20,529 nucleotides of DNA from a virus. A program made the translations under genes and the position numbers. A model generated the notes under the pieces. It made no database searches, had not been told where the DNA came from, and worked only from the letters and a program-made list of their open reading frames with translations. The stretch is taken from positions 1 to 20,529 of the IMG/VR virus record IMGVR_UViG_3300045996_001257; one strand, 5' to 3'. How positions within the stretch are numbered: the stretch's first letter is position 1; each line of letters starts with the position of its first letter. This document shows, one piece after another, positions 3,276 through 20,399 of the stretch.

Positions 3276-4642
3276 CGTTTCATAAGATTTACATCGTTAA
3301 CAGCTTCCAGAAGCACTTTGGAAACTTCTGATTTTATTTTATCTGTACTCTCTTTTAGATTCGTAGAGTGTATTTCTTGAGTTTCAATTAATTTTTCTAT
3401 GTGTATGTTAAGATTTTGAGGTCTGTTTCCAGTAACTTCAGTTCCTGTTCCTAATGAAGAAGAAGATTTACTCGTGCTATTTTTGCCTTGACTAGCGATA
3501 AGACTTTTTGTTCCGTCTAAATCTTTTGTTCCTTTATAGAAATCAAGTTCACCTCGAATCACAGCTATTCGCCTTAAATATTCTTCGTTAGAATCTGTAT
3601 CGCTTTTTCCGAGTACCTGATCACGTTTTTGCATTACAGTTAAACCCATGGCCATTTTGTTTAACTTGGAAATTTTATCCTCGTCTGACATGTTTGGCAT
3701 GTTCCTATATTTTTCAACCTCTTCTGAAAAAACTTTTATTCTAGCACCGTCTGATAGTTCGCCGTAGCGTAATCCTACTCCTTGCTTTCTAAGCGACCCC
3801 TGCATCCTGTTACTATGGGCTAAATCATCGTTAATTTTTGTCAACCAGTAACTTAATTCCGAGAAAGTAGATTTTAGGTTTTCGGAAAACGTGGTCCCGA
3901 GATTTACTTTAAATTGTTCCCAGCCATCAATTAAATTTGAGATTTGACCGCCTAGAGTTTTAGACTGATCATTCATTAAATTGAAAAACTGGCCGCCTTC
4001 TTTAGTCATATCCTGAAAGGCGCCTTCTACATCTTTAAATCCAATCTTGCCATCGTGAACAAGCTGGTTTACCTGCGCAGTTGTAACTCGTAATCTTTTA
4101 GCGAGCGATTCATAAATTGGAATGCCTCGACCGGCAAACTGCCTCAAATCAACTTGCATCACACGGCCGGAAGTTTTTAGAGTGCCATACAAGTAAGCTA
4201 TATCGGTCATAGGTGCGCCTACACCTGCAGAAACGTCCCCTAACATTTTCATTGTATCAACTACGTTTCCGGCCTGGAAGCCGTAAGCTAATAATTGACG
4301 AGTGGCCTGTTGGACCTCAGTTAATTCGAAAGGTGTTGTTTTCGCTAGGGTGACTAATCTTTGTTCTAAAACATTCGCAGCATTTTCATTACCGTGCAGC
4401 ATAGTTTTTAACCCGGCATGGAAATATTCAAAATTGGAGTATGATTCAATTACTGCTTTGCCAAAATTTACTACCTGACTAACAGAAAAAGCCGTCGCCA
4501 TAAGCCCGCCAAGTTTTCCAATGCCAGAACTCATTGAGTTCATTTTGTTGTCAAGACGTGCCGTTTCAGCATGAGCGCCCTGCATTGTTTTGCTAAACAA
4601 GTCCTTTAATCGGAGGGTATATTGCAGGTCTGTATTACTCAT
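3272..4642 (-). CDS. Tail tape measure protein
   Basis: 456 residues. Residues about 95-245 match the conserved tape measure domain: AKTTPFELTEVQQATRQLLA, YLYGTLKTSGRVMQVDLRQF and AGRGIPIYESLAKRL, followed by GGQISNLIDGWEQFK. The 'Q-L-F-GRGIP-Y--LA' motif is diagnostic of tape measure proteins of many siphoviruses and myoviruses. A hydrophobic stretch lies near residues 40-65 (LGGLMATAFSVSQVVNF). The C-terminal third is Ser/Lys-rich and ends in an amphipathic helix. The protein sets tail length and is ejected with the DNA. It is short for a tape measure, which predicts a short tail. Its ATG overlaps the TAA that ends the frameshifted chaperone extension, as expected for the G-T-H gene order. 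Confidence 0.88.
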   Translation of the reverse strand: MSNTDLQYTLRLKDLFSKTMQGAHAETARLDNKMNSMSSGIGKLGGLMATAFSVSQVVNFGKAVIESYSNFEYFHAGLKTMLHGNENAANVLEQRLVTLAKTTPFELTEVQQATRQLLAYGFQAGNVVDTMKMLGDVSAGVGAPMTDIAYLYGTLKTSGRVMQVDLRQFAGRGIPIYESLAKRLRVTTAQVNQLVHDGKIGFKDVEGAFQDMTKEGGQFFNLMNDQSKTLGGQISNLIDGWEQFKVNLGTTFSENLKSTFSELSYWLTKINDDLAHSNRMQGSLRKQGVGLRYGELSDGARIKVFSEEVEKYRNMPNMSDEDKISKLNKMAMGLTVMQKRDQVLGKSDTDSNEEYLRRIAVIRGELDFYKGTKDLDGTKSLIASQGKNSTSKSSSSLGTGTEVTGNRPQNLNIHIEKLIETQEIHSTNLKESTDKIKSEVSKVLLEAVNDVNLMKR

Positions 4643-5152
4643 CTTTATCTACTCTAATTCCAGAGTATTTTAAACAGAAGTCTAATTCGGCGACACGTTT
4701 GGCCCATTGACTGTCTGTTAGTTTATTTGGGTCTTCCTTATAATAAAAAAGGATGAGCGCATTGTTTTTAGCGATCTCATCCTTTTCAAGTAATGCTTTA
4801 TAAGTCTTTAATTTTTTTTTATAACTGTTCGCTGAACCTTAAGCAATTCCGAAAGAGCGCCGTCAACTGAATCCATTGCGTCGCCGTTACCAGTTATTAA
4901 GTCAATAGAATCCCCACCGATATATAAAGCCTTTATACAGGCTATAATCGCCTTGTCTGTATCGCTTTTTCCGACCAATGTCCAAACCATGTTTCGAGTA
5001 GTCCTGTCGGGTTTACGAAGGAACAGAATAGCAACTTTAGAATCGTCGTCCTCATCAAGTGGAACAATAAGAGTTCTTATGCTTTTGTGCTTAGCGAGAA
5101 GATCTTGTTTTTCAGCCTCGTATTTTTCAGGTAATTTTTCCATTATTGCCAT
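4635..5152 (-). CDS. Tail assembly chaperone, -1 frameshift product (GT-like)
   Basis: A second product of the chaperone gene is predicted. Ribosomes reading A_AAA_AAA at 4820-4814 would slip back one base and continue in the -1 frame from 4814 to a TAA at 4637-4635. This adds 59 codons, giving about 172 residues in all. The extension contains KAYLL-like helical sequence and EDPNKLTDSQWAKRVAELDF, then CLKYSGIRVDKDE. It has no stop and shows protein-like composition, and its stop overlaps the tape measure ATG exactly as in lambda G/GT and many other phages. Without the shift, 165 nt between chaperone and tape measure would be non-coding, which is out of keeping with this compact operon. Transcriptional slippage on the A9 run could give the same protein. 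Confidence 0.8.
4747..4786 (-). promoter_or_regulatory. Stem-loop downstream of the slippery site (frameshift stimulator or attenuator)
   Basis: On the - strand AAAAGGATGAG (4786-4776) pairs perfectly with CTCATCCTTTT (4757-4747). Inside, CGC pairs with GCG across a 2-nt bulge, leaving a 10-nt loop. The stem begins 27 nt after the heptamer, farther than the usual 5-9 nt. The 3' arm runs into TTTTTT (4750-4745), as in an intrinsic terminator. It may stimulate frameshifting, slow ribosomes, or attenuate transcription into the tape measure gene; sequence alone does not decide. Confidence 0.55.
4808..5152 (-). CDS. Tail assembly chaperone, short form (G-like)
   Basis: 114 residues. It is acidic and compact, lies between the tube and tape measure genes, and has no other recognisable domain (VPLDEDDDSKVAILFLRKPD, then TTRNMVWTLVGKSDTDKAII). 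Position and size match the tail assembly chaperone that coats the tape measure during tail assembly in long-tailed phages. The final codons are ATA AAA AAA AAT TAA, giving a run of nine A residues just before the stop. That run is the slippery site for the longer product described separately. The ATG overlaps the tube gene by 10 nt. The role is inferred from synteny plus the frameshift architecture, which together are strong evidence. Confidence 0.8.
   Translation of the reverse strand: MAIMEKLPEKYEAEKQDLLAKHKSIRTLIVPLDEDDDSKVAILFLRKPDRTTRNMVWTLVGKSDTDKAIIACIKALYIGGDSIDLITGNGDAMDSVDGALSELLKVQRTVIKKN
4814..4820 (-). promoter_or_regulatory. Slippery heptamer A_AAA_AAA for programmed -1 frameshifting
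   Basis: On the - strand the zero-frame codons are ATA AAA AAA AAT TAA, so the heptamer A_AAA_AAA is in correct phase. Both tRNAs can re-pair after a one-base backward slip. The run is nine A long (4820-4812), enough for RNA polymerase slippage as well. The zero-frame stop follows two codons later. Confidence 0.8.
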
Positions 5153-7422: not shown

Positions 7423-8568
7423 TTAAGTTCCTTGAACCAATGCAACAACACCGGTTTGTGCTGTACGGAGTTTTGACGCCCCGTGCATTACTTCTGCTGA
7501 GAATAATGAACCGTAATATTCAGGCTTGCCATTACCGTTTGAACCTGCATCGTAATAAGGAGTAATTGACCCTAAAGCGTGAGCCACATAAGAAGGGTGA
7601 TAAGCTAAACAAGCTCCCTGGTCAGTAGCTGAAGGGGATGTGATAACACCATCCCCGTCAATAGCTTTAATTACAGGAGTAGCTGTGTTGTCATAAACTA
7701 ACACTTCTGAACGTATCATAATGTCAAAGCCCATCAAACGAGCAACAACACCGTTAGGCATTACTGGTGATCCGAAAGCATAAGCCTGAACTATACCAGC
7801 GATATTTAATAAGTCGTTGTTGTAGATGTACTGAGGCACTAATAGAATGCGGCCAGACTGAGGGATATTATCAGCGTCAAGAACTTTCTTAACGTTAGTG
7901 ATATCCTGGATAGTTACCATTTTACGTGAACCAGTTGCGGTTGAGTGAGGTAGGTTGTTTGTAGAAGTTGAACCGGTAGTCATTACGATACGGGAAGCGC
8001 CTGAAGGAGCCCACGAGTAAAGAGTCCATGTTGACACGACAAACTGAAGCGTTTGATACATGTTATAAAGAATAGACTGGCGCTTGTTGTAGCTAATCTG
8101 TAATTCTTCAAGATTTTGAATCAAAATTGGATCAGTTGTGTACTGATTAAGATCGTATGTTAGTTCGGTGTCCGTTCTACCTTGAATAGCAGCTGGGAAA
8201 ACCGTCCTGTTTTTCTCTACGCCTGGTTTTGCTCCTGCTTGTGGAACGTGAACGGTTTTATGTTTTACCCACATAGAATGGTCTGTGGCGTACTTCATAA
8301 AATCGTTATTCATGTAAAGATTATCCTGAATGTCCTTACTCCAAACTTCTGTTAAAAGCGACATAAAGGCGAATGAGTTATTTGATTTAGCACCGAGGTT
8401 TACTGCGATAATCTGAACTAACAAAACTGTCGATACAGTGAGGGCGGCACATTTAAGTGTGTTGATTTCTGGAATAAAAGTTGTTTCAACTGTTCCGAAG
8501 AAAACGACTGCAAGCAAAAACGCCGTTACCAGGTTCGCTACGAGTTTAAAAATTGATTTAGTTTTCAT
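7423..8568 (-). CDS. Major capsid protein with an unusual hydrophobic N-terminus
   Basis: 381 residues. From about residue 70 the sequence fits coat proteins of Bacteroidota Mu-like phages: SLLTEVWSKDIQDNLYMNND, then VHVPQAGAKPGVEKNRTVFP and RTDTELTYDLNQYTTDPILI, followed by EELQISYNKRQSILYN. The rest includes DITNVKKVLDADNIPQSGRI, an HK97-fold-like segment. The first 68 residues are quite different: two hydrophobic stretches at about 8-28 (LVANLVTAFLLAVVFFG) and 38-60 (CAALTVSTVLLVQIIAVNLG) with a short polar link. They could be a cleaved delta/scaffold-like region, a membrane anchor, or part of a fusion. An internal ATG at 8364 (Met69) would give a 313-residue protein starting just before the conserved part. 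The neighbouring protease and scaffold fit head assembly. Confidence 0.85.
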   Translation of the reverse strand: MKTKSIFKLVANLVTAFLLAVVFFGTVETTFIPEINTLKCAALTVSTVLLVQIIAVNLGAKSNNSFAFMSLLTEVWSKDIQDNLYMNNDFMKYATDHSMWVKHKTVHVPQAGAKPGVEKNRTVFPAAIQGRTDTELTYDLNQYTTDPILIQNLEELQISYNKRQSILYNMYQTLQFVVSTWTLYSWAPSGASRIVMTTGSTSTNNLPHSTATGSRKMVTIQDITNVKKVLDADNIPQSGRILLVPQYIYNNDLLNIAGIVQAYAFGSPVMPNGVVARLMGFDIMIRSEVLVYDNTATPVIKAIDGDGVITSPSATDQGACLAYHPSYVAHALGSITPYYDAGSNGNGKPEYYGSLFSAEVMHGASKLRTAQTGVVALVQGT

Positions 8569-10127: not shown

Positions 10128-10150
10128 CCTGTATGTTGAAAAGTGTTTAA

Positions 10151-10168
10151 TATCAACTTTTCGCTATA
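10151..10168. repeat. Copy 1 of the 18-bp operon-head repeat TATCAACTTTTCGCTATA
   Basis: This is an exact direct repeat of 20382-20399. It lies in the divergent region between the protease gene (leftward) and 10214 (rightward), just downstream of a leftward -7 box. Its TGA (10154-10152) bounds the protease frame. The predicted leftward transcription start falls inside the repeat, so it could be an operator, an activator site or a 5' leader element. Confidence 0.75.
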
Positions 10169-10176
10169 CAAAATTA
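10169..10176 (-). promoter_or_regulatory. Bacteroidota-type -7 box for the protease/capsid/tail operon
   Basis: On the - strand the octamer is TAATTTTG, an exact match to the Bacteroidota -7 consensus TAnnTTTG. It directly abuts the 18-bp repeat. No good TTTG -33 box is seen about 19 nt upstream, so the promoter may need an activator. Confidence 0.5.
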
Positions 10177-10182
10177 TATTGC

Positions 10183-10190
10183 TATTTTTG
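10183..10190 (+). promoter_or_regulatory. Bacteroidota-type -7 box for the rightward small-gene island
   Basis: TATTTTTG matches TAnnTTTG exactly. Nineteen nt upstream is TTCG, a one-mismatch form of the TTTG -33 box, lying inside the 18-bp repeat. The predicted start is just upstream of the palindrome that covers the first ATG. Leftward and rightward promoters would therefore overlap. Confidence 0.5.
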
Positions 10191-10199
10191 AGTAACCCC

Positions 10200-10214
10200 T
10201 TAATGTCACATTAA
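10200..10214. promoter_or_regulatory. Palindrome TTAATGTCACATTAA at the start of the island (operator candidate)
   Basis: Perfect 7-bp inverted repeat with a one-base centre, ending on the first base of the ATG at 10214. Its place just downstream of the rightward -7 box suits a repressor site, perhaps for the DNA-binding-like protein it precedes. Confidence 0.5.
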
Positions 10215-10570
10215 TGAGTCGGATTAAAACCGAGAAACTGCATGAGTTTTTAGTATCGAAGGAACTTAAGTACAGTGTTAGGCTTACCAGTTACGCTCAC
10301 GGAGATCTAAAAAAGGTTTTTTTATGTGACTGTATACAGCGTGAGTGTAATGAAAGTAAAATGATTAATCTTATTTTAGAATCTTACTACTCTAATCCTG
10401 CAAATAAACCATCGCTCAATGAAAAGCAACTAGAATACTTCAGAAAACTAGTAAGGGAAGAGGAGGAGCGGAAAAGCACAGAATTGCAGAAGCAAATTAG
10501 GATAGATTGGGATAAAATAGAAGATAACCCGATTAAAGACTATATAAACAATAAAATAAAACTAGAATGA
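10214..10570 (+). CDS. Small protein with possible ribbon-helix-helix segment
   Basis: 118 residues, charged. The N-terminus reads MSRIKTEKLHEFLVSKELKY. A central stretch, NESKMINLILESYYSNP (about residues 46-62), resembles the second half of ribbon-helix-helix DNA-binding proteins ('s-s-li---le-y---'), preceded by a strand-like LKKVFLCDCIQREC. The C-terminal half is a highly charged helix (KLVREEEERKSTELQKQIRI). If it does bind DNA, the 15-bp palindrome over its start codon would suit autoregulation. It heads the only rightward gene group between the two structural operons. I do not recognise a named family, and the RHH reading is tentative. Confidence 0.6.
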   Translation: MSRIKTEKLHEFLVSKELKYSVRLTSYAHGDLKKVFLCDCIQRECNESKMINLILESYYSNPANKPSLNEKQLEYFRKLVREEEERKSTELQKQIRIDWDKIEDNPIKDYINNKIKLE

Positions 10571-10749
10571 GTGAATTATCAGAAGCTGACGAGATGAAAA
10601 TCATCGACTTTGAAACATACAAGTTTAGAAGGCGAATGGATAAAAGGAATAAGGAATTTAAACACGTAAAAGTGTTAGAAGTGAAGGTTAGGGTAAACCA
10701 TCCTGTGCCGGTTAAGATGGTTAAACATTGGTGGCAGTTTTGGAAGTAA
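10567..10749 (+). CDS. Small basic protein of unknown function
   Basis: 60 residues, rich in Lys and Arg (ETYKFRRRMDKRNKEFKHVK), with an aromatic tail HWWQFWK. There is no recognised family. It overlaps the previous gene by ATGA and the next by TAATG, and this tight coupling on both sides is the main evidence that it is real. The tryptophan-rich end could contact membrane or another protein, but nothing in the sequence proves that. Confidence 0.55.
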   Translation: MSELSEADEMKIIDFETYKFRRRMDKRNKEFKHVKVLEVKVRVNHPVPVKMVKHWWQFWK

Positions 10750-10952
10750 TGAAAGAAAGTGAATTTGATAGAGCGGCAAATGCTTTAAGAAAAGCCGTGA
10801 TAGATAGCGGCATGCTGTATGGTTACGGGTCTGTGCCAATAGCACCTTCTTATTCTATGCAAACCGATAAAAATGTACCCATTAACTGCAAAAACTGTGG
10901 CGCCAATGAATACAAACTGAATAAATGTCTTTATTGCGGCACTCAATATTAA
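10749..10952 (+). CDS. Small zinc-ribbon protein
   Basis: 67 residues from the ATG at 10749, which overlaps the previous stop (TAATG). A longer frame opens at 10728, but the coupled ATG is the better start. The C-terminus carries two CxxC knuckles, CKNCGANEYKLNKCLYCG, a compact zinc ribbon. The N-terminal part (SEFDRAANALRKAVIDSGML) is helical, followed by a Pro/Tyr/Ser linker. Small zinc ribbons of this sort often mediate protein or nucleic-acid contacts. The partner is unknown. A terminator follows 60 nt downstream, closing this three-gene unit. Confidence 0.65.
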   Translation: MKESEFDRAANALRKAVIDSGMLYGYGSVPIAPSYSMQTDKNVPINCKNCGANEYKLNKCLYCGTQY

Positions 10953-10986
10953 ACTAACCACTTGGTAAGTTACTAATCGGTAAGTT
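10952..10986. repeat. Inverted and direct repeat cluster (GGTAAGTT)
   Basis: AACTAACC (10952-10959) and GGTAAGTT (10964-10971) form an inverted repeat with one mismatch around ACTT. GGTAAGTT recurs directly at 10979-10986. It follows the zinc-ribbon stop and precedes the terminator. It could be a protein-binding site or an mRNA 3' structure. No U run follows, so it is not itself a terminator. Confidence 0.35.
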
Positions 10987-11011
10987 TTAGTGTGTTTTTG
11001 TCTTATCGGTT

Positions 11012-11041
11012 AAAAAGGGCCTCAGAAATGGGGCTTTTTTA
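11012..11041 (+). terminator. Intrinsic terminator of the three-gene rightward unit
   Basis: AAAAGGGCCTC (11013-11023), loop AGAAAT, GGGGCTTTTTT (11030-11040). The stem has eleven pairs, three of them G-U, and the U run follows within the stem. On the other strand the three G-U pairs become A-C mismatches, so it should act mainly on rightward transcripts. Confidence 0.7.
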
Positions 11042-11097
11042 TGAAATATACTCGCTTTGATTAGTAGTGATATAATTTATTTCATTACCTTTAATAT

Positions 11098-11637
11098 ATG
11101 AAAAAGACGTTATTAATTCTAGCCGCTCTTATTTCCCCGTTTTTTAAAGCCCAAGTGAATCCTAATTTTCCGACAATTAATATTTGGCGGGTTTTGCCAC
11201 AGAACGCATGTCCGGGAGATACACTGAGAGTTAATTTTAAATTTAATCCCCCGAGCCAGGGAACGCTTACAAATTCATATTTTATAATAAAAAGCGCTAG
11301 CACGTATTCAACCGCATGGCAAGGTAATTGGAATACTTTTTATTCCCTACCTAAGGAAACGTGGTCTCCGTTGGCATGGAATGATAGTTGTTATTTAATA
11401 AAACTTGTTGTTCCTTTTGGATTAACAGCTTGTTCATGTGCTAGCGTGCAGTCTACCGGCGATTATTTAGGTTTTACCCTTAACGGTTGCGCAACCCACA
11501 TAATTGAACAATCAGTCAATTCAGAATCTAATGCTATTTATTATGACTTGTTTGGAAACACAATTGATCCACGACCAAATGAATTGATAATTCAACAAAA
11601 TGGGTTTATGCGTAAAAAAATTATTATTGTTCGCTAA
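11098..11637 (+). CDS. Predicted secreted protein with T9SS-like C-terminal tail
   Basis: 179 residues. The signal peptide MKKTLLILAALISPFFKA is followed by QVNPNFP, the Bacteroidota-style A|Q cleavage. The mature part has several Cys residues (NACPGD, NDSCY, TACSCAS, NGCATH), consistent with disulfides in an exported protein. The last 33 residues (NAIYYDLFGNTIDPRPNELI, then IQQNGFMRKKIIIVR) match the 'YDl-G--i----gl-i---G---kkiii-' pattern of type IX secretion sorting tails, though shorter than usual. It is read against the phage operons and meets the fibre-like gene tail to tail with a 14-nt overlap. It may be a moron altering the host surface, or a virion-associated protein; no enzymatic motif is visible. 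Confidence 0.75.
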   Translation: MKKTLLILAALISPFFKAQVNPNFPTINIWRVLPQNACPGDTLRVNFKFNPPSQGTLTNSYFIIKSASTYSTAWQGNWNTFYSLPKETWSPLAWNDSCYLIKLVVPFGLTACSCASVQSTGDYLGFTLNGCATHIIEQSVNSESNAIYYDLFGNTIDPRPNELIIQQNGFMRKKIIIVR

Positions 11638-12448
11638 ATTCCTCTAACACAAATACTCCTCCGCTTATTTCTTGGTTGCCAGATGTAGTTCTTTCTGCTG
11701 TTAGTTTAAACGTTGTACCGCCTGCAACGCCTGTTACAATGTAATGCAATATGGCCTGTTTAGTTACTTGTGTAGTTGTGTCGCTATCAATTGATCTAGG
11801 GGTAATAGTTTTAATAGTTGATCCAGCCTGTTTAAGCCTTATAATAACTCCTGTTACTGATGTTGCTAATCCTGTGCCGTTCACTTCAGCTATAAAAAAT
11901 ATTTTGTAATTTCTTGTCCCTGCAGGAGTTGTGTACGTTGCGCCAGTAATGTCAGCTTCTGACCCTGAAGACGTTGTAAAAGTAGATATTGCAATTTGTT
12001 GCAGATCTTTTCGTAAAAGATCCGTCAAATCAAACGCGCCGGTTCCTGAGGCTCCTGCTTGTAAAACCAATCGTTTAATCTTATGTACAGACCCTGTTGA
12101 TAAATCTGAAAATGTAATAGGATCAATTGTGCCGTCATTGGTTAAAGATTCGACAAAAATGGCAGATGGCGCAAATGCTAAAACACCCGTGGCACCAGGG
12201 AAATAATAAAGTTCATCGTCAAAAAAAATAAAACCATCACTATACACGTCTCCTCCTGATGAAGAAACGCATCCGGCAATTACTATCCCATTTGTATTTG
12301 AAATAGAGTATAAGCCTTCCCCAATACGTGATCTGCAAATACCTTTGACCATTTCACGGCCGGCGTTCTGTAAAAATTGAAGTGAAGCCCCTAAAAAAGG
12401 CTGTTGTTTTAATGGATCGCTTATCTGTGATGTATCTATGTAATTCAT
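11624..12448 (-). CDS. Fibre-like tail protein, last gene of operon A
   Basis: 274 residues. The N-terminus (SDPLKQQPFLGASLQFLQNA, then GREMVKGICRSRIGEGLYSI) looks like an attachment domain of phage fibre or baseplate-associated proteins. A middle part follows (DGFIFFDDELYYFPGATGVL). The C-terminal 110 residues are a beta-rich Thr/Gly/Ile domain (TNYKIFF-like strands, ITGATYTTPAGTRNYKIFFI, HYIVTGVAGGTTFKLTAERT) of the sort found in receptor-binding or capsid-decoration heads. It follows the J-like and gpI-position genes, exactly where fibre genes lie in P2 and Mu. Its 3' end overlaps the convergent secreted-protein gene by 14 nt. The host-binding role is inferred. Confidence 0.65.
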   Translation of the reverse strand: MNYIDTSQISDPLKQQPFLGASLQFLQNAGREMVKGICRSRIGEGLYSISNTNGIVIAGCVSSSGGDVYSDGFIFFDDELYYFPGATGVLAFAPSAIFVESLTNDGTIDPITFSDLSTGSVHKIKRLVLQAGASGTGAFDLTDLLRKDLQQIAISTFTTSSGSEADITGATYTTPAGTRNYKIFFIAEVNGTGLATSVTGVIIRLKQAGSTIKTITPRSIDSDTTTQVTKQAILHYIVTGVAGGTTFKLTAERTTSGNQEISGGVFVLEEFSEQ

Positions 12449-12450
12449 AA

Positions 12451-13128
12451 TTAAAAAGTTTGTATATCGTAATTCATTCCTGCTAAATTGTATTTGTCTA
12501 CTACGTTTCGGATCATTTTTTCTTTGTCAGCATTCAGTGTAGGCGGGAGACCATTAAATAAAGCAATCGGGAAGTATACCGTAAAGTCATACTGAGTTGC
12601 TGAGTATGTGTTTCCCATAAAGTACGGCTGATAAGCACTATTATTTGCCATAGTACCTGATGTTTGTGAGCTTCCTCCGAGTAGAAATTGATTCGTAACA
12701 ACGTTAGTTTCTATATAAATCAGATCATTCGGTGCGGTATTCATAAACCAACGATTTAAAGCGTACTCTAAAATTATTATCTGGCTGTTGTACTTAATCC
12801 TCTCGTCTATTCCGATATAATTATCCTGAATCTTCCTCCAATAAACCGTATTCAAAGGATATTGTATCGCTCCAAAGGCTCCTGCGGGGTTTATACACTC
12901 GTAGTTCCCTAAGTCTGAATATCTCACCCGAGATCCTAAAGCAAAGCCCGTAATTGCGTCCCAATCTTGATAAGCCGTACCTACAGAGTAATCTTCGAAT
13001 ATTAGCTGCCATAATGTCTGAACCGGAGAAAGCAAAACTCTCAACCAAGCCAGATGCTTTAACTGCCTCAAAACTGGCGGTAATAGCCAACCGCTTATAG
13101 TGCTAGTATTGAAAGTGTAAATACTCAT
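12451..13128 (-). CDS. Baseplate-associated protein in the gpI position
   Basis: 225 residues. The N-terminus is hydrophobic and amphipathic (TISGWLLPPVLRQLKHLAWL, then RVLLSPVQTLWQLIFEDY), without signal-peptide form. It resembles the N-terminal helices of tail protein I types that clamp onto J. Residues about 57-98 (FALGSRVRYSDLGNYECINP, then NTVYWRKI) match a small 'GdrV-y---yecI-------p-W' carbohydrate-binding-like module that also occurs twice in the gp36-like protein. The rest (YNSQIIILEYALNRWFMNTA) is unassigned. Stop and start overlap the J-like gene as TAATG. Assignment to the baseplate is by order J-I-fibre, not by clear homology. Confidence 0.55.
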   Translation of the reverse strand: MSIYTFNTSTISGWLLPPVLRQLKHLAWLRVLLSPVQTLWQLIFEDYSVGTAYQDWDAITGFALGSRVRYSDLGNYECINPAGAFGAIQYPLNTVYWRKIQDNYIGIDERIKYNSQIIILEYALNRWFMNTAPNDLIYIETNVVTNQFLLGGSSQTSGTMANNSAYQPYFMGNTYSATQYDFTVYFPIALFNGLPPTLNADKEKMIRNVVDKYNLAGMNYDIQTF

Positions 13129-14021
13129 TAGGCTGGTGTAAAAGTTAATTTATCAGCGAATGTTTGAGATGCGGTTGTTTCCTGCTCCACATATCCAGCG
13201 AAGGTTGGGTAAGAGGTAATAATTGATAAACTGCTTTGAATAAGAAATGTTTTGCTTGAGAAAGCCGTAGCGTTAGCTCTTATTGCAGCATTAACTATTT
13301 TAACATCAATCACACCTGGAACGGCTTGAATGGCATCTACAATCTTAATAATATAAAGTGTGCCGTCAAAAGCCAGATTAGCGAAATATTCTTCAATAGC
13401 CTCAATCACTTTAGTCTGGATAACACTTGCGTACTGACCATCATAAGTTATTGTACCTTCCAAAAAGAATTTGTCTGAAGCGATTGATGTTACGTTCATT
13501 TGTACGCCGGCAAAGGCAATTCCTACACCTTCATTGGTTCCATCTCCTCCATTAGTTAGATACGTAGTAAGGGCACTTAGTTCCGGTGCCGATAGAGCTA
13601 CAGGAGGGTCGCTTTTTGCAACCTTCACGTTAACCGTTTTATTTGCGGCAGTCTTAACTGAAGCTCTGGTAATTATTCTTAAACTTTCATCGATCGTAGC
13701 ATATCCAACCGACATAAACGTTGGTGAGGTTGCTGTAGTGTCAAGCGTGACGACTTGCGGAACCGTTGCGGAGTATTGAAACTCTAAAATCTTTTTTTGA
13801 TACCATAAATCAGAACCTACCGCAGCGTATTTTGCCACATCCTCAAGCTCTATTTTCTTTTTATCCCATAACTGCTCATGAAGATTAATTACTAAGGCTG
13901 TAATATATTTCCAAAGCTTGTATATTGCACTTTGCGAGGGGCTATTTAAAGAAGCAAGTTCGGTTTCTGCCGCCTGCTGCTGATCCATATTGGTTAATAT
14001 TTCGTCTACTGATCTTGCCAT
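13128..14021 (-). CDS. Baseplate J-like protein
   Basis: 297 residues. The C-terminal half carries the J-family signature: YASVIQTKVIEAIEEYFANL followed by AFDGTLYIIKIVDAIQAVPG and VIDVKIVNAAIR. This is the conserved '--v---i--yl--l-f-g----s-l--ai--v-GV-dv-i' of P2 gpJ/Mu gp47 wedge proteins. The N-terminal helices (VDEILTNMDQQQAAETELAS, AIYKLWKYITALVINLHEQL) fit the start of the family. It is shorter than Mu gp47, and the middle domain is reduced. The protein forms the baseplate wedge with a gp25-like partner, which here is encoded at 770-1081 in the other operon. It overlaps its neighbours by one base on each side. Confidence 0.75.
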   Translation of the reverse strand: MARSVDEILTNMDQQQAAETELASLNSPSQSAIYKLWKYITALVINLHEQLWDKKKIELEDVAKYAAVGSDLWYQKKILEFQYSATVPQVVTLDTTATSPTFMSVGYATIDESLRIITRASVKTAANKTVNVKVAKSDPPVALSAPELSALTTYLTNGGDGTNEGVGIAFAGVQMNVTSIASDKFFLEGTITYDGQYASVIQTKVIEAIEEYFANLAFDGTLYIIKIVDAIQAVPGVIDVKIVNAAIRANATAFSSKTFLIQSSLSIITSYPTFAGYVEQETTASQTFADKLTFTPA

Positions 14022-14533
14022 TATTGTTCGTCTGGGTCAATTACATCGGTATTAATAACAGGCGTTGCTGTTGCGTCTACCATTGTATTTGTTAATTCAT
14101 CTAATCCGTTTGTGATATATTCTTGTGTTAAATCGTCAATGTTTGTATGGTCAAAATCCTGGTTGTCGCCACGCCTTAAAAATTGCGAGAAATTACCATA
14201 TTGTTTCTTGTGCACTTTCTGCCATACCGCCTGTTCAAACCTCAAAAGGTCTAAATCATCCTCTTTATAGCTCTCAAAGACACAATGAAGTTTTACTCCT
14301 AAACTTGAGTTCTGTGACTTTGCTGCGTTACCTTTATCTGTGTAAGTAGCGGGTAAAAACTCTATAAAAACAGCAGGAAGCCTCTTAGGGTCTTCTTTTC
14401 CTTCAGCCTCTCTTTTTAAATAATTTCGCCACAAGCCAACAGACTTAACCGTCATAGTAGAACCATCTTCTTTTGTAAAAGACACCGTTAGTAAATCGGT
14501 TTTTAACCCGCTGTATAATACTATTTTACTCAT
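14021..14533 (-). CDS. Tail terminator/completion candidate
   Basis: 170 residues. The sequence contains KRLPAVFIEFLPATYTDKGN and a strand-helix stretch LGVKLHCVFESYKEDDLDLL, then RFEQAVWQKVHKK. This alternating strand and helix order ('P-vfi-f------------v-l-c-f------l-----v---v') is the usual pattern of tail terminator proteins that cap the tube (for example Mu gp37, lambda gpU). An acidic, low-complexity end follows (VIDPDEQ). It lies between the gpG-like gene and baseplate J. The ATG overlaps the stop of the small upstream gene (ATGA). I infer the role from fold-like pattern and position, without a diagnostic motif. Confidence 0.5.
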   Translation of the reverse strand: MSKIVLYSGLKTDLLTVSFTKEDGSTMTVKSVGLWRNYLKREAEGKEDPKRLPAVFIEFLPATYTDKGNAAKSQNSSLGVKLHCVFESYKEDDLDLLRFEQAVWQKVHKKQYGNFSQFLRRGDNQDFDHTNIDDLTQEYITNGLDELTNTMVDATATPVINTDVIDPDEQ

Positions 14534-14700
14534 CGTATATTACTGAGAGCTTCAATTAAAGATGTTTGGACTTTAGTCTTAATTTCTTCCAATTGCTTCT
14601 TTGTTACCTCCCCAGAAATTTCCACCTTACCGACAAGCGATCCTATATTGATTACGATAGGAGGGTTCTTTTCTTTTTTGTTTTCGTTGTCTTCAGCCAT
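14530..14700 (-). CDS. Very small phage protein (56 residues)
   Basis: This open frame of 56 codons has ATG at 14700 and TGA overlapping the next start codon (ATGA). It begins MAEDNENKKEKNPPIVINIG and continues SLVGKVEISGEVTKKQLEEI, then KTKVQTSLIEALSNIR. The N-terminus is charged, then two predicted strands and a helix. It lies 3 nt after the gpG-like gene. Close packing, an overlap typical of this operon and protein-like composition support it. The function is unknown; it may be a small head-tail joining factor. Confidence 0.6.
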   Translation of the reverse strand: MAEDNENKKEKNPPIVINIGSLVGKVEISGEVTKKQLEEIKTKVQTSLIEALSNIR

Positions 14701-14703
14701 AAT

Positions 14704-15150
14704 TTATTTACTAAATGCTTTTTTTATTCCTTTGTCAAATATTCTTTGCAGCCTCTTGTCCAATTGAGTGCTATACCCCATAAACATGCGTTTAGGCATC
14801 TTAAACGGATGCCCGTAGGCTTTACCCATCAATCCTTCATTGTGAATCTTTGCGTACTTAAGACTACTTTTAAAGTTCACATAGAATCCTTCTTTATTAC
14901 TGTTTGAGGTAGTACGTATTGAGTTTTTAAGTTTTCCTGTATTGGTTAGAATTTTACTTCCTGCATACCTTCCTCTTCTCGGCCTTTTTAATGGTGTCCA
15001 ATGCCAAAAAGATTTATCCGTAAACCCCTCATCACTAAAAGACTTCTTATAATGTTTTAGCGCCACATCTTTCAATTGAGTACGCATTTCATTGCGGGCT
15101 ACAACCATGTGTTTAATGGTTTTACTTATTTTTTTGGCCTCGTTAAACAT
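14704..15150 (-). CDS. Phage virion morphogenesis protein, gpG-like
   Basis: 148 residues. The sequence fits the Mu gpG/P2 S 'virion morphogenesis' family: GFTDKSFWHWTPLKRPRRGR, then KILTNTGKLKNSIRTTSNSN, and SLKYAKIHNEG, ending with a Lys-rich helix. The family's signature order is 'W--l-----r-----iL--tG-L--Si-------------Ya--hn-G', all present. The following PFKMPKRMFMGYSTQLDKRL matches the conserved 'iP-R-flG-s--l' end. In Mu the protein acts late in joining tail to head or completing the tail. It follows the minor head protein, which agrees with Mu order F-G. It overlaps the small upstream gene by TAATG. Confidence 0.85.
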   Translation of the reverse strand: MFNEAKKISKTIKHMVVARNEMRTQLKDVALKHYKKSFSDEGFTDKSFWHWTPLKRPRRGRYAGSKILTNTGKLKNSIRTTSNSNKEGFYVNFKSSLKYAKIHNEGLMGKAYGHPFKMPKRMFMGYSTQLDKRLQRIFDKGIKKAFSK

Positions 15151-15353
15151 TACTTGTTTCTTCGCTTTGACAGAACGGGGGTAAGTTTAATTTTTCCTAG
15201 CCTTGTCAATTGCTTTTCCAGTTCTTTTGCCAGTTTTCCGCAAACTTTCAATTGATCGGTGTACTTTGTCATTCCACGTAACTCCATTGTATAAATAGTA
15301 TAGTTAGTTTTCGATCGGGCCTTGTTTACTACTTTGCTTGTCTTTTTTTTCAT
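15150..15353 (-). CDS. Small basic protein of unknown function
   Basis: 67 residues, strongly basic (Lys and Arg through both ends: MKKKTSKVVNKARSKTNYTI, LGKIKLTPVLSKRRNK). It has a central helix, DQLKVCGKLAKELEKQL. No family is recognised. It is tightly packed, 4 nt after the gpF C-terminal piece and overlapping the gpG-like gene by one base. Such composition suits binding to nucleic acid or to an acidic partner in head assembly, but nothing proves it. Confidence 0.55.
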   Translation of the reverse strand: MKKKTSKVVNKARSKTNYTIYTMELRGMTKYTDQLKVCGKLAKELEKQLTRLGKIKLTPVLSKRRNK

Positions 15354-15357
15354 TGTT

Positions 15358-15732
15358 TTATTTTTTAGGTAGTGGTAATTTAAAATTCTGTTTTGCTAGT
15401 TTCTTGTCTTTCGGCGCTATTTTGAAATATGGGTGCTTCTGGCTAACAACAGTTCTTTCTTTAGCGGCATTAAATCTGAATATTTCAGGGACCGACTTAT
15501 GAAGATTCAATCCAATTGTGTTTGTTGAAGTGATCCCAGAAGATTGCAATTTTTCTAGTTTGCACCGGCATCTCCAACCATTTGGCGGCGTGTAAATGTC
15601 CCAAAACGGATCGTCAACTTTCTTTACCACCCAATCCAATAGAGCGTGTTCTGGTCTTACCCTTCCGTCTCTCCTGGTTACGTATCGAAGAAATTTCTGT
15701 TGCTCTATTCCTTTGTTTACGACTTGTTCCAT
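15358..15732 (-). CDS. Minor head protein gpF-like, C-terminal part in a separate frame
   Basis: 124 residues carrying the diagnostic core of Mu gpF-type minor head proteins: LRYVTRRDGRVRPEHALLDW, then DDPFWDIYTPPNGWRCRCKL. The 'RVRp-H--ld', 'dPFWd---PPN-W-CRC' motifs are intact. Family members normally carry this after a long N-terminal helical part in one protein; here that part is encoded by the upstream frame. The ATG at 15732 lies 13 nt before the upstream stop, in the -1 frame, so coupled re-initiation is possible. A Lys-rich end follows (APKDKKLAKQNFKLPLPKK). Minor head proteins bind the portal and are packed in small numbers in the shell. Confidence 0.75.
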   Translation of the reverse strand: MEQVVNKGIEQQKFLRYVTRRDGRVRPEHALLDWVVKKVDDPFWDIYTPPNGWRCRCKLEKLQSSGITSTNTIGLNLHKSVPEIFRFNAAKERTVVSQKHPYFKIAPKDKKLAKQNFKLPLPKK

Positions 15733-16178
15733 GATTCAAATTTTAACCATTCATGAGCTGATTTAGCCTGCAGCCCAAAGTTCTCATACTCTATACTCAA
15801 GTATTGCTCATTATATTTGTCAAAGATCGTTAGTGCTTTATCAATTATCTCCTGTTTAGAATTGTACTCTTCTTTTCCAATCATAGACAGAATCTCTCTT
15901 ACAAGCTGGTACTGTTTTGCACCGGTGAATACATACGCACTTTCAATTAAATCAGCGAGTAAACTATATTCATCTGAGCCGTAACCTAGCTCGTCTAGTT
16001 TGTTTCCATATCCTTCTTCAATACTCTCAGACAGCTTACGGGCTATCGTTAAGTACTGGTTAACATCAAGATTCTCAATATTAACTCTACCTAAAAGAAC
16101 ATTTTCGACATAAGTTTCCTTTTCCTCTTGGGTAAAAAGACTTATAGACCGAACGTTTTTAATATCCGATATACACAT
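15717..16178 (-). CDS. Minor head protein gpF-like, N-terminal part in a separate frame
   Basis: 153 residues with helical composition. A start-to-middle region (TQEEKETYVENVLLGRVNIE, then YLTIARKLSESIEEGYGNKL) matches the N-terminal part of Bacteroidota gpF-like proteins. The end, NFGLQAKSAHEWLKFES, corresponds to the '--y---v--a--a--w--f' helix that normally continues directly into '...LrYvT--D-RVRPEH'. After it come only WNKS and a stop. The continuation is found in the -1 frame in the next gene. The combined product would be about 275 residues. The TGA of the downstream frame lies 6 nt before its ATG, so any frameshift would have to occur in a very narrow stretch lacking a classical heptamer. 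Confidence 0.65.
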   Translation of the reverse strand: MCISDIKNVRSISLFTQEEKETYVENVLLGRVNIENLDVNQYLTIARKLSESIEEGYGNKLDELGYGSDEYSLLADLIESAYVFTGAKQYQLVREILSMIGKEEYNSKQEIIDKALTIFDKYNEQYLSIEYENFGLQAKSAHEWLKFESWNKS

Positions 16179-16205
16179 GGTTTGGTATTTTTATAACCTA
16201 GAAAG

Positions 16206-17438
16206 TTAACCATTCCCGTAAAATTTATCAAGATTATTTCGCACATTCTCAATATCAGTATCAACTTTTGGCTCTATAACTTCAATAACTTCTGTATTGT
16301 ATTTTTCTTTAATGTATTCCGGGGTTAATTTGTATTTGCCTGTCTTTATCAGTTCGATATCAATTTTACTCTTATCTAACAAGCTTAATTCGTCATCTTC
16401 CACAGAACACAAATTATCATCGGGCGACAATAAACCTTTAGTAACCATTAATGGCTTGAGCTGGTAATTTAGAACGCCCTCAATAAAGAAATTATCTGAT
16501 TCGCTTACATTATCTAGTACTCTCTCGTGAACTTCCGCTGATCCAACGAACGATTTTTCGTCCATCGTTGCCGTTTGTCCTAATATTAGTTTCGAGATTT
16601 CCGAGTTACACCTGTTGATCATCATGTCAAATACCTGGTAGGCATCTTGACGAGTGTCAGCCTTTAACTCAATCTGGTCGTCTAATCTAAAAAGCCCCCA
16701 TGAGGCTACGCTCATATTACTAAGCATGTCTTCCATGGCTTGAACGCTATTAAAATCGGTAGCGTCGGTTTTACCTATTCGTATAGGCGACCCGAACTTT
16801 TCAACGTATTCAGACCAAGCGCCAAGAGCATTTTTTTTCCAGATAACCAGAGGAGCCACTTTTAAAAGAAGTCCTAAATCATTGGTTCTACCAACACCTA
16901 TACACCAATTTTTCCATGGGTTTTCTAAATAATCGGTCCCCTCGATTCCGTTGAATGTATCAGTTACTATATGTAATTCAGGTTTAACATATTGTCTAGG
17001 GACAAGCTCAACACATTTGAAAACGTCGTCAATTAAAGAGTCGAACTGTATAAGGGAGTAACCCCAAAAAATAGAATCAAGCGAGTAGTCTAAGAAGTCA
17101 CGAAACCATTTTTGTTGAATTAGTTTCGTTTTTTCTTCATTCTCTTTCCCATCTTTATTATTAACCACAAAGTTCCTGCATAGTATCAGGTTCTTGCGCT
17201 GAGTCATAGCTGCGGTGAGATGAGCGTCTAAAACACATTGATTATACACCTGAAGTAACTGGTACCTTTGAGGCATTACAATTTGCTCGGCTGCAATAAC
17301 TGCGTTTTTGTAGTCCTGTATATCTGTTCTTACACGGTATAAAGGAGTTTGTATCGTAATTTTTTTACGCACATCCGCTTTATCCGGTTTTTTTTCGGTA
17401 ATGTTTTTTACGGTATTTAATTTTTTTTCCCTAGCCAT
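16206..17438 (-). CDS. Portal protein, DUF935/Mu gp29-like
   Basis: 410 residues from the ATG at 17438, which overlaps the connector stop (TAATG); a TTG six bases upstream is less likely. The sequence fits the DUF935 portal family of Mu-like phages: QVYNQCVLDAHLTAAMTQRK, then WGYSLIQFDSLIDDVFKCVE and GLLLKVAPLVIWKKNALGAW, and KFGSPIRIGKTDA. NRCNSEISKLILGQTATMDE, then SAEVHERVLDNV, is the family's C-terminal motif ('--i--ilGqt-tt------s-A---vH--v'). The portal is the dodecameric DNA gate at one head vertex and the docking site for terminase. It is preceded by TerL and the gp36-like connector and followed by gpF. The N-terminal 30 residues are Lys-rich and likely disordered. Confidence 0.88.
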   Translation of the reverse strand: MAREKKLNTVKNITEKKPDKADVRKKITIQTPLYRVRTDIQDYKNAVIAAEQIVMPQRYQLLQVYNQCVLDAHLTAAMTQRKNLILCRNFVVNNKDGKENEEKTKLIQQKWFRDFLDYSLDSIFWGYSLIQFDSLIDDVFKCVELVPRQYVKPELHIVTDTFNGIEGTDYLENPWKNWCIGVGRTNDLGLLLKVAPLVIWKKNALGAWSEYVEKFGSPIRIGKTDATDFNSVQAMEDMLSNMSVASWGLFRLDDQIELKADTRQDAYQVFDMMINRCNSEISKLILGQTATMDEKSFVGSAEVHERVLDNVSESDNFFIEGVLNYQLKPLMVTKGLLSPDDNLCSVEDDELSLLDKSKIDIELIKTGKYKLTPEYIKEKYNTEVIEVIEPKVDTDIENVRNNLDKFYGNG

Positions 17439-18322
17439 TACCAAAGCATGTTTCTTGATGAAGTTGTTGAATCATTTGCGTTTCCTGACCTCATGGCCAT
17501 ACCTTGCTCCGGATTTATTTCTGGCAAATCGGCGTTTACCGATCCTTTAGCTACCCGCTTTAACCATCCAATAGCGCCGCCGCAATCATTATGGGAATTG
17601 CCGTTGTAAGCTTCTTTGCGGTGATCGGGTACGTTTCTAGGATTTATTCTTCTGTGTAAATGATATAAGGTTATATCTATTAAGTGTAATACTATAAGCT
17701 GGTTTCTATTGTCGCCAGCGGTCCATTTTGTTGTATCGGTAGGTAAGTCTCCTGAAATAGAGTAGGATACTCCTGAACCCCATACCGCAGACACGGTTGT
17801 TTTTACGTTTGTATTAGCTACTAAAGCAGTATAAACTTTGTCATCATACCAAACTTCATCCCCTATAACGTATTCAGTTTCGGGATTCCATTGTTCTTCT
17901 GGTAGAGTAACATAGAATAAAGATTTATCTAAACATAGTTGATCCCATTTCGCTGGCGTGGTTGTAGGTGACTGTCCGGCTGTAGTTAACGTAACACACT
18001 CGTAAACATATGTAAGAGCGTTATCGCCGGAGCCTGTTGTAAAGGTGATCCGATCCCCTGGATTATATACAGATAAAGCGTTAAAAACTGTTTCAGTGTA
18101 TTCTACTAAGTTTTTAGCGTAATAAGTAGCGGTATTGTCGTAAACAGTGGTGTTGGAAAATATCTCTTCCTTAATATAACGTTGTTCTAGGTAAGAAATC
18201 ATCTCGGCCTGTGCGGCTTGTTCAACGTCCAATTTAACCTGTTGGTTATTCTCAATTATTTGAGCAAGATTATCCGATTGGATAACCCTTAAATAATCTA
18301 AATCCCTGAGTAACCTGCTCAT
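17438..18322 (-). CDS. gp36-like head-tail connector with inserted carbohydrate-binding-like modules
   Basis: 294 residues. Residues 1-65 (LRVIQSDNLAQIIENNQQVK, then EQAAQAEMISYLEQRYIKEE) and about 205-270 (QLIVLHLIDITLYHLHRRIN, then PRNVPDHRKEAYN and AIGWLKRVAKGSVNADLP) together match Mu gp36-type (DUF1320-like) connector proteins. In those, the two parts are normally adjacent in 130-150 residues. Between them are about 135 extra residues with two modules, about 86-130 (YNPGDRITF...YVYECVT...P.KWDQL) and 145-203 (YVIGDEVWYDDKVYTALVAN, then TKW). Both carry the 'Y--Gd-V-y---vY-a---n----P----W' pattern of small CBM5/12-like modules. The insert would be exposed on the neck. The Asn/Ser tail is flexible. 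Confidence 0.65.
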   Translation of the reverse strand: MSRLLRDLDYLRVIQSDNLAQIIENNQQVKLDVEQAAQAEMISYLEQRYIKEEIFSNTTVYDNTATYYAKNLVEYTETVFNALSVYNPGDRITFTTGSGDNALTYVYECVTLTTAGQSPTTTPAKWDQLCLDKSLFYVTLPEEQWNPETEYVIGDEVWYDDKVYTALVANTNVKTTVSAVWGSGVSYSISGDLPTDTTKWTAGDNRNQLIVLHLIDITLYHLHRRINPRNVPDHRKEAYNGNSHNDCGGAIGWLKRVAKGSVNADLPEINPEQGMAMRSGNANDSTTSSRNMLW

Positions 18323-18358
18323 TTATGCAAAATTACTTGGGGGATTATAGCGATTTCG

Positions 18359-18374
18359 TTATTGTCACATTTAA
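18359..18374. promoter_or_regulatory. Intergenic sequence resembling the island operator
   Basis: The 53-nt gap between the terminase stop and the connector start contains TTATTGTCACATTTAA. This shares TGTCACATT and most flanking bases with the palindrome at 10200-10214 (TTAATGTCACATTAA). On the - strand TATAAT is also present nearby. It could be an internal control site of operon A, or chance. Confidence 0.25.
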
Positions 18375-18375
18375 T

Positions 18376-19806
18376 TTATAGACGGTGTGTTGGGTTTGTA
18401 GCGTTTCTTCCTAAAGGACGGCGATCATGTTTTTTAGGTCCAGATTGATATTCATCGTAATCTGATTTGAACGCCTGACACAAAATATAGTCTGTAAGGT
18501 CGGTAATATGACCCCATTGCTGATAACTTACGCCTGTGTTATTGTCTTTTACCAGCTTTTTATCTTTAGTTCCGTCTGCAGCTTCTTTTGTTTGCTCAAA
18601 ATCCATGATCGCCTCGTGTAATCCTTTATCTATGAAGAAACGAATCTCATTAAAGTTGTTTTCAAGTACTTCGTTGAAGAAATTTCCACGCATAACCACA
18701 GAAGGATTAGCGGACGGAACTCTTAACTGAGGCTTGAATTTTTCCATTTCCTGCAGTATTAATTTGAAGAAGTTATAACCCTTTTCAAGTTTTACATCTT
18801 CTTTCTTACTTGTGGCATCACCGTAAATAAACATTCCAGAAACATGATTGTTGTATTTATTTCTGATTTGTGCGCAAACTGATTTTATCGTATTGTTCGG
18901 AGTACGGCCCAAGAATAAATCAACCAGGTAAATGGATTTCCCTTTGATCTGGAATACACCGCAGGGTAAATAAGGGTTAACGTTCTCATCCCATGATAAA
19001 TGAAGCGGCAAAGAAGGATCGTATTTAAGTTCGGCTACATGGCGTTTAGAATCAAATTTCTTGTAAAACTCGCCTCCTGTTTTCGGTATTGCATCCCAAT
19101 CTCCGTAGAGTAAACGAGCTTTATCATACTCATTCATCTTAGATAGAGATTCTTTATACAGTTTCATAAATCCTTCATCAGGGTTATCGTCAACGGTGGC
19201 CCGGATATATTTCTGATACGGCTGCAGTTTGATATAGTCACCTTTTTTATTCTTGATGTACTTTTCTTTTATCCAGTTTATGTTAGGATTGCAGGTAAGA
19301 AGAATTTTAGGTTTGAGTCCAAAATCTGATAACATCCATCGTATGCGGGAGTTTATAATGTCAAAAGCTTTTTCGGTAATTTCTCCAGCCTCATCTATAA
19401 AAGCATCTGTAAATTCAGTTGATCCTAAGCTTTCAAAATTTGGGTCGGAAGGCTCTTGTTTAAGTTCTTTAAATACAGTACGTGATCCATTGGACCAGTT
19501 TATAACCATATCCTGAGCGTTGAACTTAAAATCAATACCGGAACGATAGCCCATTATTTGGGCCACCTTTAAATAAGTGATAAGCGTTGATTCTTTTATG
19601 GACTTTAGTTCTTTACGACCGATGAAACCACGAGAGCCAGGATAACGAACACGGCGGACAATGTGCCATAGACAACCTAAATATGACTTGCCGCCCCCTG
19701 CGGCACCTCCGAATAATACCTCATTTGTTGTATGGTCTGATAAATAATGCCAAGCGTTTGATTGTTTTTGAGATAAGTTAAAGATTCGACTATTTACGCT
19801 CGTCAT
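18376..19806 (-). CDS. Terminase large subunit
   Basis: 476 residues, a normal TerL length. The ATPase domain has Walker A GGAAGGGKS (33-41), Walker B DAFIDEAGE (134-142, catalytic Glu139) and the coupling motif TCNPN (171-175). The nuclease domain has the expected acidic residues: Asp273 (LSWDENVNPY), Asp330 (FIYGDATS) and a late Asp near 435-438 (GHITDLTDYI). It cuts concatemeric DNA and pumps it through the portal, while docked to the portal encoded two genes downstream. The start overlaps the HTH gene by 17 nt. All key residues are intact, so the enzyme should be functional. Confidence 0.93.
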   Translation of the reverse strand: MTSVNSRIFNLSQKQSNAWHYLSDHTTNEVLFGGAAGGGKSYLGCLWHIVRRVRYPGSRGFIGRKELKSIKESTLITYLKVAQIMGYRSGIDFKFNAQDMVINWSNGSRTVFKELKQEPSDPNFESLGSTEFTDAFIDEAGEITEKAFDIINSRIRWMLSDFGLKPKILLTCNPNINWIKEKYIKNKKGDYIKLQPYQKYIRATVDDNPDEGFMKLYKESLSKMNEYDKARLLYGDWDAIPKTGGEFYKKFDSKRHVAELKYDPSLPLHLSWDENVNPYLPCGVFQIKGKSIYLVDLFLGRTPNNTIKSVCAQIRNKYNNHVSGMFIYGDATSKKEDVKLEKGYNFFKLILQEMEKFKPQLRVPSANPSVVMRGNFFNEVLENNFNEIRFFIDKGLHEAIMDFEQTKEAADGTKDKKLVKDNNTGVSYQQWGHITDLTDYILCQAFKSDYDEYQSGPKKHDRRPLGRNATNPTHRL

Positions 19807-20074
19807 GAACCCATTCAGTTAACTGCTTTTTACTAAAGTAAAGCCTCTTTCCCTTCTTGGAAAAAGGAATCTTCCTGCTTGAAACTAGTCCATATATGGT
19901 TTGATTACACAGATTCAAAAAAACCGCTGCCTCTGTAACCGTTAGAAGTTCGTCTTTTTCGTTTTTTTCAACGCTAACACTCTGCAACACTTCGCGGACG
20001 CAAGCTATGATAGTAGCCTGAAAATCGTTCATAGTCATTGATATAAACACTATTTCATTTTCTTTAGTTTTCAT
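19790..20074 (-). CDS. Helix-turn-helix protein (HTH_17/excisionase-like) beside terminase
   Basis: 94 residues. Residues about 42-91 are a winged helix-turn-helix of the excisionase/MerR-like type: LLTVTEAAVFLNLCNQTIYG followed by LVSSRKIPFSKKGKRLYFSK, then KQLTEW. The pattern 'lt--eaa-fL-----tiy-lv--gkip--k-gkrl-f-k--l--W' is typical. The N-terminal 40 residues form an amphipathic helix. It lies between the small-terminase candidate and TerL, overlapping both (11 and 17 nt). This place suggests DNA recognition during packaging or control of the late operon, rather than excision. Excisionase action cannot be excluded, but no integrase is seen. Confidence 0.8.
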   Translation of the reverse strand: MKTKENEIVFISMTMNDFQATIIACVREVLQSVSVEKNEKDELLTVTEAAVFLNLCNQTIYGLVSSRKIPFSKKGKRLYFSKKQLTEWVHDERK

Positions 20075-20354
20075 TTTCGTTTAGAGATTGTATGTTAATT
20101 ACTGGAGCCTGTAGTTTCTCTCCGTCTGATTTGATATCAATTTGTTTTGGCATGAAATAAGGGGCCAGTTTAGAAAAGCAAAGAATGTAATTGAACGGTG
20201 ATTTTTCCCGAATGTCGTTTAACGCTTGTTCGACATGATCAACCTGCCCCTCCATAATTTGTACGAATAGAGCTTTTGCGTCTTTGGTCACCTTGTTTGG
20301 CGTACCCTTCTTCTTGCCGCCCGTTTTCGGCTTTCCAGTTTCGAACTTTGCCAC
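20064..20354 (-). CDS. Terminase small subunit candidate (GTG start)
   Basis: 96 residues starting with GTG at 20354. The N-terminus is a basic Gly/Lys stretch, GKPKTGGKKKGTPNKVTKDA, then a helical part KALFVQIMEGQVDHVEQALN and SPFNYILCFSKLAPYFMPKQ. This 'GrpKGt-NK-t-e----f------------l-----k----p--y---l-kl--y-lPk' pattern is what I know from short proteins directly upstream of terminase in Bacteroidota phages. It is generally taken to be the small terminase subunit, which recognises the packaging site. It is the first gene of operon A, 28 nt after the 18-bp repeat. The acidic end overlaps the HTH gene start. Confidence 0.65.
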   Translation of the reverse strand: MAKFETGKPKTGGKKKGTPNKVTKDAKALFVQIMEGQVDHVEQALNDIREKSPFNYILCFSKLAPYFMPKQIDIKSDGEKLQAPVINIQSLNENEN

Positions 20355-20381
20355 TAACTAATTCTATTATAGAGGCTAAGG

Positions 20382-20399
20382 TATCAACTTTTCGCTATA
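20382..20399. repeat. Copy 2 of the 18-bp operon-head repeat TATCAACTTTTCGCTATA
   Basis: Exact copy of 10151-10168 in the same orientation. It lies in the 66-nt divergent region between the small-terminase candidate and the rightward gene at 20421. On the - strand it is preceded by TTTATTTG (20411-20404), one mismatch from TAnnTTTG, 4 nt upstream of the repeat. The common place at the head of both leftward operons argues for shared control. Confidence 0.75.

Follow-up and report, generated by a model that had tools for sequence, protein, structure and literature searches.

An 18-bp element at the heads of both structural operons in a Bacteroidota phage and its relatives

The two structural operons of the phage sequence analyzed here begin with the same 18-bp element, which is phage-specific and is conserved in pairs among relatives, with fixed position and orientation. 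The head sequences support well the view that this element is an asymmetric control site shared by both operons and lying over their predicted transcription start, and it very probably acts as a phage-specific switch for the two particle-building gene sets. In its most specific form, our explanation is an asymmetric operator over the start of both operons, read by a phage-encoded protein and most likely serving repression, with a Cro-like protein as the candidate reader. We regard this full reading, drawn from sequence comparison, as having about an even chance of being correct.

The window, i.e., the whole stretch of DNA that was analyzed, is an entire IMG/VR record of 20,529 bases and is probably a genome fragment. 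Its gene set (Terminase_3, Portal_Mu, Phage_Mu_F, Clp-type protease, capsid, DUF2586 sheath, and tape measure) is that of a Mu-portal type tailed phage, and the host group of the virus is Bacteroidota. The N-terminal part of the protease gene contains no ATG, GTG, or TTG in the window, and the probable start, judged from the alignment with relatives, is a CTG at 10127. Non-ATG starts are frequent for this gene, with TTG in G001, G003, and G006, and the G011 group has no ATG, GTG, or TTG near a predicted leaderless start. The Mu F-like gene of the window (15358-16178, minus strand) consists of two overlapping frames (15717-16178 and 15358-15732), and its counterpart in relatives is a single gene of about 268-274 aa; the split may reflect a sequencing error, a frameshift mutation, or a programmed frameshift. 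Additionally, the capsid protein (7423-8568, minus strand) has a hydrophobic N-terminal extension of ~68 aa that is common to the window, G001, and G003 and is missing in G006 and most relatives. The features of the two operon heads are as follows:

10151..10168, minus strand: element copy at the head of the protease/capsid/tail operon; exact, with copies at the same place in G001, G003, L008, and L181, and before the sheath gene in L135
20382..20399, minus strand: element copy at the head of the terminase/portal operon; exact, with copies at the same place in G001, G003, L004, and L078
9009..10127, minus strand: Clp-type head maturation protease, first gene of the downstream operon; start aligned with the TTG starts of G001 and G003
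20064..20354, minus strand: small-terminase-like (TerS) protein, first gene of the upstream operon; assigned from position and relatives, with a weak match to a PHROG of unknown function
10169..10176, minus strand: -7 box TAATTTTG of the protease operon; exact, 0 nt before the element, a spacing kept in G001, G003, and L135
20404..20411, minus strand: -7-like box TTTATTTG of the TerS operon; one mismatch, 4 nt before the element, a spacing kept in G001, G003, and L004

An 18-mer search of the window located TATCAACTTTTCGCTATA exactly at 10151-10168 and 20382-20399 on the same strand, as an earlier note on this DNA had reported; read with transcription (coding strand), the element is TATAGCGAAAAGTTGATA. 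The earlier note also held that a chance match was expected well below once. A chance origin is indeed unlikely, although the shuffles do not make it negligible: an exact direct repeat of at least 18 bp of any kind appeared in 1% of 300 dinucleotide shuffles of the window, and a 12-bp word common to the two short intergenic regions appeared in 0.17% of shuffles. The argument from length proved weaker than claimed, since the genes of the window contain a 19-bp exact repeat (3594-3612 and 4956-4974, both encoding GKSDTD) and a 17-bp exact repeat (1741/16588). Therefore, repeat length by itself is no proof of function and is weak evidence for it, and the comparative evidence is independent of this argument. 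A third near match with two mismatches lies inside the portal gene in the same orientation as the element (16259-16276, minus strand), and its weight-matrix score of 19.0 is higher than that of all background sites. It encodes EPKVD, and similar residues occur in relatives (EPKED in G001 and EPIDT in G003), so this look-alike is most likely a coding coincidence. Many copies within coding regions would have spoken against a control site; the one look-alike found is explained by the encoded peptide.

Among 2.9 million viral contigs, the exact element was found in only two others, L078 and L079, directly before a TerS homologue in each. Variants were identified at the TerS head of L004, at the protease head of L008 and L009, and, in L135, at the head of an operon that starts with the sheath gene and adjoins an RHH homologue. 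Searches of whole records added a second copy to G001, at 432-449 (protease head), and to G003, at 3740-3757 (TerS head), and three phages (the window, G001, and G003) have one copy per structural operon. With up to three mismatches allowed, there are two sites in 32 kb of G001 and two in 23.5 kb of G003. Degenerate scans of IMG/VR returned 62 and 63 matches; the ones from outside this group are in unrelated sequence, and many seem to fall within genes.

Both heads could be compared in 12 genomes, in which the element was present at both heads (3 of 12) or at neither (9 of 12); Fisher's test on this concordance gives 1/220, a value that is overstated because the phages are related and few. Absence from the same heads in related phages had been named in advance as a point against the element; it is kept at both heads in three phages and is absent from many relatives, and is then missing from both heads together. 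With a leave-one-phage-out weight matrix, the head sites were the top sites in all five element-bearing records tested (20.1-27.5), and the best score among the eight element-less relatives scanned was 14.5. Between different phages, TerS-head and protease-head copies are 89% identical inside the element, and the flanks are 19-34% identical, which is near chance. The same site thus stands at two operon heads of one phage and is kept in relatives, as in a multi-site operator regulon. A chance repeat is rejected by these matrix scores and cross-head identities; the longer exact repeat in the genes of the window speaks for it, but with the same two places conserved in divergent phages we consider it extremely improbable.

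Judged from protein identities, the presence of the element cuts across terminase and capsid relationships. The large terminase of G001 is 71% identical to that of the element-less G011 and 44% identical to that of the window, and the capsid proteins of the element-less L243 and L244 are 77-78% identical to that of G001. This distribution, together with the location of the copies at two module starts, would be compatible with a short boundary sequence kept by recombination between modules. Such an origin is nevertheless very doubtful, as each copy keeps a base-exact distance from the -7 box and this distance differs by head, as for a regulatory site.

The TAHHTTTG sigma-A -7 element of Bacteroidota was found at six heads as TAATTTTG, TAACTTTG, TATTTTTG, and TAAATTTG, and with one mismatch at the TerS heads of the window and L004. 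The two boxes that the earlier note had placed upstream of the copies were thus recovered, exact at the protease head and with one mismatch at the TerS head. At every protease-type head the -7 box is followed by the element with no gap (0 nt), and at every TerS head the gap is 4 nt; this constant spacing within each head class is the fixed position expected of an operator regulon. In Flavobacterium johnsoniae, transcription starts 4-5 nt after TAHHTTTG (PMC6847099). If this rule holds for the phage, both starts would lie inside the repeat, at nt 5-6 of the protease-head copy, positions 10164/10163, and at nt 1-2 of the TerS-head copy, positions 20399/20398, which agrees with the earlier prediction of starts at or near it.

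Since transcripts of both operons probably include most of the element, it might act as RNA in the 5' leader on translation or message stability. A hairpin in the protease leader of G003 (z -3.0) points in this direction, but G003 is the only phage with notable leader folding, no consistent fold was seen across seven leaders, and no Rfam family matched. Furthermore, bases 1-4 of the element are fully conserved at protease heads, where they are predicted to be untranscribed, and this suggests recognition as DNA rather than RNA. We consider action as RNA improbable.

In the main rival explanation, a phage antiterminator or a pause factor would load at the first bases to be transcribed, so that polymerase reads through both long late operons. 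This would fit an element that covers those bases with an orientation fixed relative to transcription and occurs exactly once per long structural operon, and lambda Q sites and the RfaH ops element are comparable systems (PMC6606751, PMC2871177). However, the 4-nt shift relative to the -7 box between head classes argues against a factor that needs one fixed polymerase geometry, and fixed polymerase contacts are hard to reconcile with it. The region contains no more terminator-like sites than chance would give (8 found against 9.7 expected), and no antiterminator candidate was recognised among the proteins scanned, which cover part of the open reading frames. Antitermination is therefore possible but rather unlikely in our estimation.

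In addition to the element, the heads contain other short features, and a regulator gene lies divergent from the protease:

10138..10144, plus strand: inverted partial arm GAAAAGT, facing ACTTTTC (10156-10162) of the element; a possible second half-site, seen in the sequence
20363..20373, no strand given: small dyad TCTATTATAGA between the element and the TerS start, from the head sequences
10200..10214, no strand given: perfect palindrome TTAATGTCACATTAA at the RHH start, from the sequence; a probable RHH operator with a GTNAC core
10214..10570, plus strand: RHH-like regulator, divergent from the protease; predicted CopG fold, of a family present in the clade, and disfavoured as reader

The protease heads of the window, G001, and G003 each have such an inverted partial copy opposite the element, and in G003 it ranks third among the sites of the 20-kb stretch; it is absent at TerS heads and in L135. 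The small dyad has counterparts in relatives (TCTAT/ATAGA, GCTAT/ATAGC, and CGTAT/ATACG). Sites of the GTNAC type occur near the RHH start across the clade, and none was seen at TerS heads among the relatives' heads compared.

The RHH-like protein had been suggested earlier as one possible reader, and the element might then be the operator of this divergently encoded protein. Its predicted fold matches CopG, with non-significant Foldseek E-values, and the family adjoins the protease in most of the clade, including next to the protease-head copy in the window, G001, G003, L008, and L135. The element does not co-occur with the gene as the operator of a CopG/Arc-like protein would, however: L243 and L244 have the RHH gene and the protease promoter without the element, and L010 has the RHH gene without the element. 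The retention of the gene in L243 and L244 makes the protein a poor candidate, and the family has GTNAC dyads at its own start, including TTAATGTCACATTAA in the window. We therefore disfavour the RHH-like protein, and consider that it reads the element only with low probability. In G006, the RHH homologue (L005, 12207-12590, minus strand) includes an additional N-terminal domain that weakly matches HTH_Tnp_1 (E 0.037); the other family members are short.

The HTH_17 protein of the window (19790-20074), the other reader proposed at first, was rejected; among related phages it was found in the window only, and in no other element-bearing phage. In G001, L078, and G003, the TerS head is adjoined by a gene for a 76-aa Cro-like protein, and a C-terminal fragment of it is present in L004; Cro-like proteins are encoded at 7427-7654 of L146 and at 3500-3727 of L147. 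No match to this protein was found in the element-less clade members searched, and homologues occur in L239 and L240, both without the element. The location of the gene beside the TerS head and the lack of a match in element-less clade members support this candidate, and it appears to fit as reader better than the RHH-like or HTH_17 protein. The structural model, built from two sequences, is of low confidence (mean pLDDT 69.7), with a weak, non-significant likeness to phage 434 Cro (E 0.23), and no Pfam match was found for the protein. Cro-type proteins usually bind palindromes, and the element is not palindromic, which counts against a Cro-like reader. The window ends 130 bases past the TerS-head element, before any Cro-like gene could appear.

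A host-encoded regulator is not supported, since a search for the element with the -7 box in 84,980 prokaryote genomes gave two matches, neither of them from Bacteroidota or in a related context, and a host regulon was accordingly rejected. Of the earlier proposal of one regulator, phage- or host-encoded, the single regulator is consistent with the shared site at both heads of three divergent phages, and the host-encoded version lacks support. Scanning bacterial genomes by terminase turned up no prophage. The earlier idea of an operator that separates early rightward from late leftward transcription is unnecessary: in G003, the next gene upstream of the TerS head is co-directional with it.

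Taken together, the paired presence or absence, the matrix scores, the 89% cross-head identity, the fixed spacing, and the lack of a host regulon support an operator. In the proposed mechanism, the 18-bp site, placed directly after a host-type -7 box, would cover the point at which transcription of each late operon starts, and a phage-encoded DNA-binding protein would read it, so that the terminase/portal genes and the protease/capsid/tail genes switch together. The most likely mode would be repression, in which the start region is occupied until the regulator is lost or diluted, and the candidate reader would be the 76-aa Cro-like protein whose gene adjoins the TerS head in relatives. We infer the DNA-level action, the repression, and the identity of the reader; position and neighbourhood point to repression by the Cro-like protein as the most likely mechanism.

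The element-less G006 (L218) offers a possible parallel. Its two heads (TerS about 10984 and protease about 2006, both minus strand) have a different word in common, ATATTTAATTCT, located 27 nt upstream of the -7 TTTG in both. The heads match in register at 36 of 62 positions, more than at any other offset, and the same test across element-less relatives gave a clear result for G006 alone. As one genome, it is only a lead. In Bacteroidota phages of this group, the two structural operons might be controlled by a swappable paired site, i.e., the start-overlapping element in one lineage and the upstream word in G006, each with its own phage regulator; we hold this generalization to be tentative and rather less probable than not. 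If true, it would represent a modular late-control switch not described before.

The literature searched contained no paper on late-gene control in Winoviridae-like phages. The present analysis provides a defined site with two target operons and a small set of candidate regulators, and, if confirmed, the element would give Bacteroidota genetics a compact means of control that is specific to the phage. Among named phages, the nearest ones found were Flavobacterium phages from the Winoviridae (capsid 38-40% identical, proteins 37-40%). Two of them, lotta8-1 and FPSV-S1, resemble the window in the order of the terminase, Mu-type portal, protease, capsid, and sheath genes, but the element is absent from the stretches read (25.1 and 24.1 kb).

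Among known systems, the operators of P1 C1 are likewise asymmetric, of ~17 bp, and located at several operons of one phage; the element differs in having fewer sites, an unrelated sequence, and a putative reader. The late activators of Mu (C) and P2 (Ogr) coordinate late genes through one site per late operon, as the element might, but their sites lie upstream of the promoter core, whereas at every head the element follows the -7 box. Stoperators of the L5 type are asymmetric and oriented with transcription. In cluster A mycobacteriophages (PMC9283540), stoperators and operators of this type are short sites read by a phage repressor at several places in the genome, and this is the likeness to the element. 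Here, only two sites were found, each of which stands at the head of a structural operon and covers its predicted start, and G001 and G003 have two sites each in place of many elongation-stopping sites. Lambda-type Q sites and the RfaH ops element (PMC6606751, PMC2871177) resemble the element in lying at or just after the start of a long operon; the element differs in a promoter spacing that changes by 4 nt between heads, with the starts predicted, and in that the proteins scanned included no antiterminator. Shared sites that coordinate phage operons are an already known kind, to which the element, with a putative reader, would belong.
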